A stretch of 64,000 bases of DNA, from the NCBI RefSeq assembly GCF_003182075.1, contig NZ_QGTH01000004.1:1-64000 (forward strand), read 5' to 3'. Shown in pieces: positions 35,887 through 51,480 of the stretch. Position 1 is the first letter of the stretch, and every line of letters starts with the position of its first letter. The DNA comes from Finegoldia magna. Lineage in GTDB: Bacteria > Bacillota > Clostridia > Tissierellales > Peptoniphilaceae. The translations under genes were made by a program, and so were the position numbers. The notes beneath the pieces are model-generated. The model was not told the origin of the DNA. It saw only the letters and a list, made by a program, of their open reading frames with translations, and made no database searches.

Positions 35887-36573
35887 AACCCCCAGTTAGA
35901 CTGGGGGTTCAGTATAGCTTTAGCGATGAAAAACCAACAAAAAACCTCCTATGATATATAATTAAATTGTAGTTCGCCAACTGCAATAAAAAATATCAAG
36001 GAGGTAAGAAAATGTCATCAATAAATGACAAACATAGTTTATCACATACAAAATGGAACTGTAAATACCATATAGTATTTGCACCGAAATATAGGAGAAA
36101 AGAATTTTACGGAAGCAAAAGATTAGAAATAGGACAAATACTTCGAGAATTATGTAGCTGGAAAGAAGTAAACATAATAGAAGCTGAAGTATGCCCAGAT
36201 CATATTCATATGTTAGTAGAAATACCACCGAAACTATCAGTATCAAGTTTTATGGGATTTTTAAAAGGAAAGAGTAGCATAATGATATATGAAAGATGGG
36301 GAAGCTTAAAATATAAATACAGAGGAAGACAGTTTTGGTGTAGAGGATATTATGTAGACACAGCAGGTAAAAATGCAAAAGCAATCCAAGAATATATCCA
36401 AAACCAATTAAAACAAGACCAGTTAAGTGAACAACTAACATTTGATGTAGTTGACCCTTTTAAAGGGTAGCAAGTAGAAGTTGCAAGTGGCGGACTAACC
36501 AACGCCATTGAGGCGTGGCTGGTAATACAGGCCCTTTGGGTCGCATGAGAAAAACCCCCGGCTACGCCGGGGG
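35887..36573 (+). mobile_element. IS200/IS605-family insertion sequence (TnpA only)
   Basis: The element is bounded by two GC-rich subterminal hairpins: left AACCCCCAGT (35887-35896) with ACTGGGGGTT (35900-35909), right CCCCCGGC (36555-36562) with GCCGGGGG (36566-36573). Both have three-base loops of the form TAx. There are no terminal inverted repeats or target duplications, as expected for Y1 HUH transposition through single-stranded ends. It carries only tnpA; no TnpB or IscB. It lies between the groESL terminator and the GTPase gene. Exact cleavage sites cannot be fixed from one copy. Confidence 0.85.
36012..36470 (+). CDS. tnpA: IS200-type Y1 transposase TnpA
   Basis: A 152-residue single-domain HUH nuclease, of full length for the family. 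The HUH motif is in CPDHIHMLVEIP (His-Ile-His), the N-terminus WNCKYHIVFAPKYRR is typical, VSSFMGFLKGKSS is the central helix, and the catalytic Tyr is in AIQEYIQNQ. AAGGAGG lies seven bases before the ATG. The reading frame is intact, with no frameshift, so it could be active. Confidence 0.95.
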   Translation: MSSINDKHSLSHTKWNCKYHIVFAPKYRRKEFYGSKRLEIGQILRELCSWKEVNIIEAEVCPDHIHMLVEIPPKLSVSSFMGFLKGKSSIMIYERWGSLKYKYRGRQFWCRGYYVDTAGKNAKAIQEYIQNQLKQDQLSEQLTFDVVDPFKG

Positions 36574-37999: not shown

Positions 38000-38007
38000 A
38001 ATAATTA

Positions 38008-38100
38008 CAGAGTAGGGTTGATGCGTTTAGTGTAATGGGATAGGGAGTTGCCCATTAACGAAATTATTGCGATATCAATGCCGCTTCCGCTGATAACATG
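38008..38100 (+). ncRNA. Tetrahydrofolate (THF) riboswitch
   Basis: The leader of folE has the THF-II/THF aptamer landmarks: GAGTAGGGTTGATGCG (38010-38025), the conserved GTTTAGTG that follows, a GGGA-capped hairpin (TAATGGG with CCCATTA, 38033-38039 and 38051-38057), and the 3' strand ATATCAATGCCGCTTCCGCT that closes on the first segment (GTTGAT with ATCAA). I assign it from sequence pattern and from position upstream of folE, the classical location for this class in Clostridia. Ligand excess should promote the downstream terminator. Confidence 0.82.
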
Positions 38101-38110
38101 AATTAGTGGG

Positions 38111-38147
38111 AGCATTATCTTAGAAAAATAGGATAATGCTTTTTTTT
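38111..38147 (+). terminator. Attenuator terminator of the THF riboswitch
   Basis: AGCATTATC (38111-38119) with GATAATGCT (38132-38140), then a T7 tract. Confidence 0.88.
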
Positions 38148-38167
38148 GGAGCACTCTCGAGTGCTCC
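38148..38167 (+). other. Second hairpin between attenuator and folE
   Basis: GGAGCACT (38148-38155), CTCG, AGTGCTCC (38160-38167): a perfect 8-bp palindrome directly behind the T-tract, followed by TATATTTTTAT. It may be a back-up terminator or a 5' stabiliser of the RNA. Confidence 0.55.
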
Positions 38168-38195
38168 TATATTTTTATAAAAGAGAGGGATTTAA

Positions 38196-38750
38196 ATGGA
38201 TAAAGAAAAAATTGAACAAGCAGTGTCAATGATAATAGAAGCTATTGGTGAAAATCCAAACAGAGAAGGATTATTGGAAACTCCTCAAAGAGTAGCTAGA
38301 ATGTACGAAGAAATTTTTAGTGGACTAAACCAAGATGCGAAAGTGCACTTGTCAAAATCTTTTGAAATAGTTGATGATAATATGGTTATAGAAAAGGATA
38401 TTCCTTTCTATTCTATGTGTGAACATCATTTACTACCATTCTGGGGAAAAGTTAATATTGCTTATATTCCTGATAAAAGAGTTGCTGGTTTATCAAAATT
38501 AGCTAGAACTGTTGACGTTTATTCAAAAAAACCGCAATTACAAGAGCGTTTAAATATAGAAATAGCTGATGCATTAATGAAATATTTAAATTGTAAAGGA
38601 TGTTTGGTTACTATTGAAGCTGAACACATGTGCATGAATATGAGAGGGGTTAAAAAACCAGGTACTTCAACAATGACTTCAGTAGCAAGAGGAGCTTTTG
38701 AAGAAGATTTGGATTTGAAAAACGAAGCATACAGATTAATGGGATTATAA
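38196..38750 (+). CDS. folE: GTP cyclohydrolase I
   Basis: A 184-residue FolE converting GTP to 7,8-dihydroneopterin triphosphate, the first folate step. Landmarks: [19 protein letters not shown], zinc ligands Cys75 and His78 in [45 protein letters not shown] and [13 protein letters not shown] (third zinc Cys region). AGAGAGGGA precedes the ATG. First gene of the riboswitch-led operon; it overlaps the HD gene by one base (TAATGA). Confidence 0.97.
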
Positions 38751-39229
38751 TGAAAAATACCGACATTGTCCTTAATCACAAATTATTTAATAAAAAAATA
38801 AAAAAAATTGAAGATGATGAGAAAACTCGTGTGTTTTGCAAACATGATTTCTCTCATCTTATGGATGTAGCTAGAATCTGCTATATTATTAACTTAGAAG
38901 AGAATCTGAATATTGATAAGGATTTAATATATGTTACAGCGCTTTTGCATGATTTGGGAAGAGCTGACGAAGTAGATATAGGGATTAATCACAGTATATT
39001 ATCACAAGAAATTGCACAAGAAATTTTGAAAGATTTAGATTTTAATGATGAATCAAAGCAACGAATAATAAATGCTATTAAACATCATAGAACTAATGAA
39101 GAAAATGACGATAGATTTATAGAGATTTTTTACAAAGCAGACAAGTTATCGAGGATGTGTTTCAGATGTCCTGCTAGAAGTATTTGTAATTGGCCAGAAG
39201 AAAAGAAAAATAAAACAGTTATATATTGA
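38750..39229 (+). CDS. HD-domain phosphohydrolase in the folate operon
   Basis: A 159-residue HD-superfamily protein. Predicted metal ligands: His in HDFSHLMDVAR (about residue 29-33), the His-Asp pair in TALLHDLGRADE (about 67-71), and a later His pair IKHHRTNEE with Asp in YKADKLSR. A short C-terminal Cys patch, CFRCPARSICNW, may bind metal. It overlaps folE by one base and ends 11 bases before folP. The operon has no Nudix FolQ, so this protein is a candidate for removing phosphates from dihydroneopterin triphosphate; that is a hypothesis from context only. Confidence 0.85.
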   Translation: MKNTDIVLNHKLFNKKIKKIEDDEKTRVFCKHDFSHLMDVARICYIINLEENLNIDKDLIYVTALLHDLGRADEVDIGINHSILSQEIAQEILKDLDFNDESKQRIINAIKHHRTNEENDDRFIEIFYKADKLSRMCFRCPARSICNWPEEKKNKTVIY

Positions 39230-39240
39230 AAGGATACAAA

Positions 39241-40056
39241 ATGTTAATTAGAAACAAAGAATTTGATTTTAAAAACGATGCTTATATAATGGGAATTTTA
39301 AATGTTACACCGGATTCTTTTTCAGACGGAGGAAAATGGAATGAAGTTGACAGAGCTGTGAAACACGTCGAAGATATGATAAACGAAGGAGCTAGTATCA
39401 TTGATATTGGTGCTGAATCCACAAGACCAGGACACACTCCTGTATCTTCTGAAGAAGAACTTGAAAGAGTAATTCCTATCATTAGAAAAATAAGAGAAAA
39501 CTTTGATATTCCAATTTCTTTAGACACATATAAAGCTAATACTTTAAGAGAAGTTGTGAAAGAAGGGGCAGATATTTTAAATGATGTTTGGGGATTGAAA
39601 TCAGATCCAGAAATGGCACAAACTGCTAAAGAATTAGATATTCCTGTAATATTGATGCACAACAAAGATAATAATAATTACAATGACTTAATGAAAGATT
39701 TAAACAGAGAAACATTAGAATCAGTTGAATTAGCGAAAAAAGCGGGAATCAAAGATGAATTAATTATATTGGATCCGGGAGTTGGCTTTGCACTTGATTA
39801 CGAAAAAGATTTAACCGTTGTAAACAGAATCAAAGAATTTGTCGATTTGGGATATCCTGTTTTATTGGGAACGAGTAGAAAAAGATTTATTGGTAAAGCT
39901 ATGGGAATAGATGTAGCTACTGAAAGAGATTTTGGAACAGCAATAACAACTGCTATTGGTGTAATGAATGGATGTTCAATTTTCAGAGTTCACAATGTAA
40001 AAGAAAGTTATGATGCTATGAGAATGGCTTTGGCTATAAAAAGAGAAGGAAAATAA
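39241..40056 (+). CDS. folP: Dihydropteroate synthase
   Basis: A 271-residue DHPS joining 4-aminobenzoate to 6-hydroxymethyl-dihydropterin pyrophosphate; target of sulfonamides. ATG 39241 with GAAAGG upstream is preferred to a TTG at 39226. Landmarks: IMGILNVTPDSFSDGGKW, GASIIDIGAESTRPGHTPV, PISLDTYKA, ILNDVWGLKSD, ILDPGVGFALDYEKDL, LLGTSRKRFIG and IFRVHNVKE. Its stop overlaps the folBK start by one base. Confidence 0.97.
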   Translation: MLIRNKEFDFKNDAYIMGILNVTPDSFSDGGKWNEVDRAVKHVEDMINEGASIIDIGAESTRPGHTPVSSEEELERVIPIIRKIRENFDIPISLDTYKANTLREVVKEGADILNDVWGLKSDPEMAQTAKELDIPVILMHNKDNNNYNDLMKDLNRETLESVELAKKAGIKDELIILDPGVGFALDYEKDLTVVNRIKEFVDLGYPVLLGTSRKRFIGKAMGIDVATERDFGTAITTAIGVMNGCSIFRVHNVKESYDAMRMALAIKREGK

Positions 40057-40874
40057 TGGACTACCTTTTAGTAAAAGATTTAGAAATTTACGCTAACCAT
40101 GGAGTATTTCAATCTGAAAAAGAATTGGGACAAAAATTTTTGGTGACATTAAAAATGGGATACAACATGAAAAAAGGCGCAACTTCCAATAATTTAGAAG
40201 ATTCAATACACTATGGGGTTTTGAGTAAAGAAATTTACGATTATTTTCGTTCAGAATCCATAGATTTAATAGAAACAGTCGCTTATAAATTGATTGAGTT
40301 TATATTTGAAAAATACAAAATCGTACAAGAACTTACTGTAGAAATTAAAAAACCATGGGCTCCAATAAATTTGCCGCTTGATACTGTTAAAGTGACAATT
40401 AATAGAAAAAAAAGAAGATATTTTCTGGGAATAGGATCCAACATTGGAGATAAACAAGAATATGTTAATTCTGCTATTGATAGATTGAAAAACACAAATA
40501 GTATTGAATTAAAAAACGTGTCTGAAATGTACACTACAAAAGCTTGGGGGAAAACTGATCAGGAAGATTTTCTAAATTGTGCCGTTGAAATAGAATCATA
40601 CGAAGAGCCAGAAGATTTGCTGAAAATAACTCAACAAATTGAGTTGGATCTTGGCAGAGAAAGACACGAAAAATGGGGACCTAGAACTATAGATATCGAC
40701 ATTCTATTTTGTGATGATGAAATAATATATACTGATGATTTGAAAATTCCACATCCTTATGTTCAAGATAGAAAATTTGTGTTGGAACCTTTGAATGATT
40801 TTGCTGAATTTTTGATACATCCTGTCTTAAATAAAACACTCAAGCAATTGCTGAATGAATCAGAAAGCAAATAG
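40056..40874 (+). CDS. folBK: Bifunctional dihydroneopterin aldolase / HPPK
   Basis: A 272-residue fusion. The FolB part (about 1-118) has VKDLEIYANHGVFQSEKELGQKF and SIHYGVLSKEI and aligns as a complete aldolase; a short basic joint (INRKKRR, about 114-122) leads into FolK (about 123-272): FLGIGSNIGDKQEYV, VSEMYTTKAWGKTDQEDFLNCAVEI, RERHEKWGPRTIDIDIL, IPHPYVQDRKFVLEPL. The two consecutive reactions give 6-hydroxymethyl-7,8-dihydropterin and its pyrophosphate for FolP. The fusion agrees with the operon order. FolB retains conserved Glu and Tyr. Confidence 0.95.
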   Translation: MDYLLVKDLEIYANHGVFQSEKELGQKFLVTLKMGYNMKKGATSNNLEDSIHYGVLSKEIYDYFRSESIDLIETVAYKLIEFIFEKYKIVQELTVEIKKPWAPINLPLDTVKVTINRKKRRYFLGIGSNIGDKQEYVNSAIDRLKNTNSIELKNVSEMYTTKAWGKTDQEDFLNCAVEIESYEEPEDLLKITQQIELDLGRERHEKWGPRTIDIDILFCDDEIIYTDDLKIPHPYVQDRKFVLEPLNDFAEFLIHPVLNKTLKQLLNESESK

Positions 40875-51257: not shown

Positions 51258-51289
51258 TAGTTATATTATACAATAATTAAAAATGTTGA

Positions 51290-51480
51290 AGAAGAAAATA
51301 CAAAACTAGATACAAAGAGAGATATGGTTTGGTGTGACATATTTATCGAATTTTGTTGGTTCGCTTTGAAGTTGCTAATATAGCCGTGTAGAGTGCGTTA
51401 AACTTGCGAGTGATGTTATCATAATTTGGGTGGTACCGCGGAAATACAATCTTTCGTCCCATATGGGATGAGGGATTTTT
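51290..51480 (+). ncRNA. T-box leader, phenylalanine specific
   Basis: T-box sequence TGGGTGGTACCGCGG at 51427-51441. Stem I begins with AAAGAGAG (51314-51321) and has the GGTGTGA motif (51331-51337). The specifier is most likely TTC at 51360-51362 in GGTTCGCTTTGAAG, aligned with GGC of the glycine T-box. The stem CGTCCCAT with ATGGGATG followed by AGGGATTTTTTT is the terminator. Confidence 0.9.

Follow-up and report, generated by a model that had tools for sequence, protein, structure and literature searches.

In folate synthesis, a drug-target pathway (PMC5526541), the substrate of FolB is dephosphorylated dihydroneopterin, and as of 2007 the gene for the step from FolE to FolB was missing in most genomes (PMC1971073). 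FolQ/NudB, a Nudix dihydroneopterin triphosphate pyrophosphatase, is described for this step (PMC1971073, PMC5526541). Additionally, HDIG-superfamily proteins in folate gene clusters were named FolQ2 in 2007 as an unverified prediction, with CPE1020 of Clostridium perfringens as an example (PMC1971073, Table 2), and FolQ2 is among the folate roles listed in PMC6593275. We found no published test of a FolQ2-type enzyme in the open-access literature; subscription papers may contain one. The archaeal methanopterin pathway uses an HD phosphodiesterase, MptB, which has a cyclic phosphate substrate and by description matches the role proposed for the protein considered here, in that it follows GTP cyclohydrolase directly and has a dihydroneopterin phosphate as its substrate. 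Cleavage of anhydrides by HD enzymes has precedents in YpgQ and YqeK (PMC8177086, PMC9426524).

Here we analyse a FolQ2-like HD-domain protein of Finegoldia magna, encoded in a 64,000-nucleotide stretch of DNA (the window). We judge it, with a probability of roughly 0.68, to be a FolQ2-type phosphohydrolase of dihydroneopterin triphosphate, most likely yielding the monophosphate and pyrophosphate, where substrate, bond and metals are predicted and the reaction itself (loss of PPi, PPPi or Pi) is read from gene position and HD chemistry. Like FolQ2, it is an HD(IG) protein within a folate cluster in Firmicutes and has the same proposed step, and a pterin-phosphate role for it is thus a rediscovery of the FolQ2 prediction as presented in the available text of PMC1971073. 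The subfamily boundary, the co-occurrence numbers, a four-cysteine set, the riboswitch link and a FolC fusion are new relative to the available portions of PMC1971073 and PMC6593275, which do not mention the cysteine set or the fusion for FolQ2. Our alignment holds members from seven named Clostridium species, CPE1020 not among them, and orthology to CPE1020 is presumed.

The gene belongs to a folate operon of four + strand genes, called from open reading frames and profiles, with the order folE, HD, folP and a folB-folK fusion. folE (38196..38750, +) encodes a GTP cyclohydrolase I (PF01227, GTP_cyclohydroI, 251.8 bits; TIGR00063, 220.4 bits, cut-off 181.6) whose product has 4uqf as its closest PDB relative (1.6e-64), and the Pfam, NCBIfam and PDB comparisons show a FolE of the canonical kind. 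The HD gene (38750..39229, +) opens with ATG and encodes 159 amino acids matching PF01966 at 55.7 bits (cut-off 22) and the HDIG model TIGR00277 at 32.5 bits (cut-off 27.6). Downstream lie the dihydropteroate synthase gene folP (39241..40056, +; Pterin_bind 276.7 bits, TIGR01496 316.4 bits, cut-off 162.6) and, in one open reading frame, the folB-folK fusion (40056..40874, +; FolB 110.3 and HPPK 132.9 bits; TIGR00525 120.1 and TIGR01498 147.1 bits, both above cut-off). These matches confirm what the initial annotation had claimed, namely that the HD gene lies between folE and folP in an operon with a folB-folK fusion. The single-base overlap it reported is present at the folE junction (TAATG; folE stop 38748-38750, HD start 38750), and also at the folP/folBK junction (40056), but not between HD and folP. 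There, folP starts either at TTG 39226, with a four-base overlap, or, as is more likely, at ATG 39241, which lies 11 bases past the HD stop and behind AAAGGA.

Upstream of folE we identified a THF (tetrahydrofolate) riboswitch aptamer, RF01831, at 38006..38094 on the + strand (61.8 bits by cmscan against a gathering score of 36; window-wide E 1.4e-11), which the earlier description of this DNA lacked. As this riboswitch precedes folE, the HD gene is part of an operon that senses tetrahydrofolate. Folding of 38006-38195 (MFE -59.4, z -4.33) gives a hairpin followed by a U-run at 38110..38147 (+), after the aptamer and before folE. This hairpin is likely the terminator of the riboswitch expression platform, a role that we infer; a consensus scan did not list it and listed 38083-38113 and 38148-38167 instead.

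Several lines of evidence place the protein in the HD superfamily: the PF01966 match above cut-off, the residues H36, H67, D68 and D131 in 81/81 sequences, and the fold. The AlphaFold2 model (mean pLDDT 94.9) has the HD hydrolase 2pq7 as its best solved match (Z 13.3, rmsd 2.9, 137 aligned), which is also the one match at E <= 0.001 by Foldseek alone. HD is the only Pfam family matched at E <= 0.001, and no Nudix family is among the 18 NCBIfam matches; thus the protein shares a proposed reaction and pathway place with FolQ/NudB, but has an unrelated domain. The top NCBIfam matches besides HDIG are Cas3'' HD (37.9 bits, cut-off 43.45) and RNase Y (29.7 bits, cut-off 454.35), both under cut-off, and we regard them as superfamily likeness only. 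Six presumed metal ligands (H36, H67, D68, H81, H113 and D131; 38855..39142, +), each invariant in 81/81 sequences, form the extended H..HD..H..H..D motif, described as the mark of a dinuclear site (PMC8177086).

This motif is shared with YqeK, a diadenosine tetraphosphate hydrolase/diphosphatase that cleaves phosphoanhydrides (PMC8177086). However, YqeK occurs in clusters or fusions with nadD (PMC9426524), and the HD protein scores 14.6 bits on TIGR00488, well under the equivalog cut-off of 70.15. YpgQ, an HD nucleotide pyrophosphohydrolase listed as a diphosphatase on dNTPs (PMC8177086), shares the HD fold (5dqw, Z 10.6, rmsd 3.2, 134 aligned, a Z that is not decisive for a helical fold), but is described with a mononuclear Mn site (PMC8177086) and is 19% identical to the HD protein. 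We propose that 7,8-dihydroneopterin triphosphate, the FolE product, is the substrate, and that its phosphate chain would be hydrolysed so that FolB can use the pterin. The dinuclear site formed by the six ligands would most likely cut the alpha-beta anhydride, and the predicted products are dihydroneopterin monophosphate and pyrophosphate, as for Nudix FolQ/NudB.

The fold comparison also returned PPX/GppA, SAMHD1, YhaM, Ddi2 and GlyRS, where Z below about 13 in helical folds can reflect a common arrangement. SAMHD1 chains (Z 10.4-11.0) raise the alternative that the HD enzyme strips all phosphates, taking dihydroneopterin triphosphate down to dihydroneopterin either by releasing PPPi or step by step, and so replaces both FolQ and the 'non-specific phosphatase'. 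PMC8177086 lists triphosphatase activity for SAMHD1 and mono-, di- and triphosphatase activity for OxsA, and the open reading frames of the operon include no separate phosphatase gene. A fold match, however, cannot tell these reactions apart, and we consider complete stripping unlikely.

The distribution of the protein is consistent with the proposed cleavage of dihydroneopterin triphosphate. We searched 245 genomes drawn evenly from the class with a profile built from 80 loci found by peptide patterns; members occur in 40/245 genomes at E <= 1e-51 and the next match is at 3.4e-17, the subfamily line being drawn at this gap after it was seen. Some HD match at E <= 0.001 is present in 236/245 of the same genomes, and judged by profile the HD protein is a member of a sharply bounded subfamily. 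All 40 members fall within the 61 genomes whose FolE, FolB and FolP all score over cut-off (this threshold removed 2 genomes with weak FolE and 10 with weak FolP), and the subfamily is found in 0/184 genomes without the full set, including 0/9 with FolE without FolB and 0/5 with FolB without FolE (Fisher p 8e-31 for the co-occurrence, kinship ignored). This pattern is the one expected for a step between FolE and FolB. The HD gene is absent from 21/61 full-pathway genomes, and thus the step can be done otherwise.

Gene order is similarly persistent. Across 61 related genomes, that of the window included, the ten strongest matches (E <= 3e-31) all have folE immediately ahead of them and folP or folBK behind. 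Within the window's family, 9/10 genomes with FolE have the HD gene; in the exception (G020), folE abuts folBK, no subfamily member is found by profile, and the sole HD-profile match is weak (25.4 bits) and inside a 520-aa frame. Among the 40 class-sample loci, 39 have a same-strand fol or pab gene no more than 250 bp away, with a folP match beginning 884 bases off in the remaining one (L146), and the nearest listed neighbour within 250 bp is FolE upstream in 21/40 and FolP downstream in 30/40. At several loci where the HD gene is apart from folE it lies alongside pab genes or after folK. In named genomes, two peptide patterns yielded 390 confirmed relatives; of the best 80, 78/80 lie within ~4 kb of a fol or pab gene, 42/80 show the order folE-HD-folP, and 12/80 show folE-HD-folB or -folBK without folP between. 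The HD gene sits between folE and folB also in genomes with folP elsewhere. The two remaining loci of the 80 have no fol or pab gene; there, the subfamily members at L095:4001-4480 and L098:4001-4480 have none in a stretch of ~8.5 kb, and each is preceded by a gene of 604-610 aa that is similar in the two loci.

In two genomes that share a genus (G107 and G249), FolC is fused to the HD domain, which forms the C-terminal portion of proteins of 560 and 552 aa. The fusion genes (L165:1894-3576 and L174:1873-3531) score above cut-off on TIGR01499, contain the HD part by profile, keep the four conserved cysteines, and each sits behind a THF riboswitch. Scans for this riboswitch covered all 40 class loci, with 8 positive (the window included, all upstream on the operon strand), and 16 of the 80 other loci, with 3 positive. 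Thus co-occurrence in 40/40 genomes, persistent adjacency, the FolC fusion and the THF riboswitch strongly support placement of the HD protein in the folate pathway. Against a more specific reading, operon position alone fits another folate-pathway step too, and 8/40 riboswitch loci are a minority.

The choice of FolC, rather than FolE or FolB, as fusion partner is among the observations that would fit a house-cleaning enzyme, which destroys damaged or wrong pterins or nucleotides and performs no pathway step. YqeK beside NadD has been reported as such a proofreading diphosphatase (PMC9426524), and the lack of the HD gene in 21/61 full-pathway genomes would agree with house-cleaning. The absence of the subfamily from all 9 sampled genomes that have FolE but not FolB and all 5 that have FolB but not FolE, together with its position between folE and folB, nevertheless points to an intervening step, and we think house-cleaning scarcely probable.

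The extra cysteine patch noted in the initial annotation proved to be a conserved feature, made up of C30 (38837..38839, +) and C137-x2-C140-x5-C146 (39158..39187, +), each invariant in 81/81 sequences. The count for C30 is biased, as the 80 loci were collected with two peptide patterns and one of these includes this residue; in a re-test on the profile-found class sample, C-x-H-x3-H and C-x2-C-x5-C were each present in 40/40 members. The C-terminal trio is absent in 9/9 non-folate HD relatives, which are more distant members of the same order (9 of 15 weaker HD loci, those that tblastn listed), and 3/9 have a cysteine one column from C30. In sequence the cysteines flank the metal ligands, with C30 six residues before the first (H36) and C137 six after the last (D131), and a metal site of four cysteines close to the active centre is therefore likely, its closeness being judged from sequence order. 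The four cysteines probably coordinate an Fe-S cluster or zinc in a structural role.

The C-x2-C-x5-C spacing occurs in the iron-staple nucleases AddB and Cas4. These enzymes likewise have one N-terminal and three C-terminal cysteines around the catalytic domain (PMC3466216), the layout found here, but differ in fold and substrate, and the likeness extends only to how the cysteines are arranged. The main text of an HD review (PMC8177086) uses neither the word cysteine nor iron-sulfur. A more speculative proposal, which we regard as rather doubtful, is a [4Fe-4S] or zinc 'staple' HD enzyme, mostly of anaerobes, that converts dihydroneopterin triphosphate to dihydroneopterin with activity tied to cluster integrity and hence oxygen sensitive. 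If true, this enzyme would close both open steps of the pterin branch together. The clean subfamily with its 40/40 co-occurrence, the diagnostic cysteines and the FolC fusion make the FolQ2 prediction annotatable by profile and testable with one protein.

The initial annotation saw no Nudix FolQ, and at the level of profiles this stands: across the whole genome the NudB profile reached 18.8 bits at best against a cut-off of 103, and a NudB-type FolQ was rejected on this basis (best 18.8-19.7 bits), by a model that is narrow (over cut-off in 1/14 controls) and does not reach the L. lactis type of FolQ. However, three Nudix-domain proteins are encoded outside the window, and a cryptic FolQ may be among them. 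Use of the FolE product for queuosine was likewise set aside, as PTPS gave no hit at E <= 1 in the same genome and the PTPS control was positive in 9/14 genomes. As FolE is canonical, FolB needs a dephosphorylated pterin, neither NudB nor PTPS was detected and HD enzymes have precedents for anhydride cleavage, hydrolysis of dihydroneopterin triphosphate is the most economical reading.

The three Nudix proteins also bear on a different division of labour, in which one of them takes off pyrophosphate and the HD enzyme is only a dihydroneopterin-monophosphatase, a type of activity known for HD proteins such as YfbR (PMC8177086). All three fall short of the NudB cut-off (19.7 and 18.8 bits at best vs 103), and a Nudix-box scan of 119 loci, which recovered 2/3 control genes, returned only L096 and L111, with an HD gene in L096 only. 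Additionally, the dinuclear motif is described for YqeK, whereas mononuclear sites are described for YfbR and YGK1 (PMC8177086). We thus consider a monophosphatase-only role highly improbable and retain hydrolysis of the triphosphate as the preferred reading. The genome also has five Metallophos_2 matches, and these or the three Nudix proteins might do the work between FolE and FolB.

Operons without the HD gene contain other genes that may be substitutes, a lead only, fitting a step filled several times in evolution. In 4/21 HD-less full-pathway genomes, all of one family (G144, G169, G235 and G275; f70), a Metallophos_2 gene adjoins folP, and this phosphoesterase may fill the same gap in the pathway in a different way; the genes lie at L129:4585-5085, L130:4771-5274, L135:2019-2507 and L139:4466-5029. 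A nucleotidyltransferase-like gene adjoins folE in five HD-less genomes, one of the 21 (G090) and four of the first sample (G042, G043, G051 and G058); the proteins of G090 and G042 were scanned, and that of G090 was under cut-off. These genes are at L124:4476-5201, L108:5540-6211, L109:5188-5904, L110:5382-6095 and L113:4687-5358, and by eye line up with pab and fol genes in 4 of the 5 genomes. In one genus (g109), a gene of ~310-340 aa precedes folE in 5/6 genomes, and the two scanned encode an AraC-type regulator. By eye, the remaining HD-less loci have no common extra gene.

Two RNA matches lie elsewhere in the window. An Rfam STnc490 match at 35887-36002 directly precedes a transposase-like open reading frame (36012-36470, IS200-like by eye), and is likely part of an insertion element rather than an Hfq sRNA. 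A T-box leader at 51277-51464 scores 94.0 bits, where the gathering score is 93.
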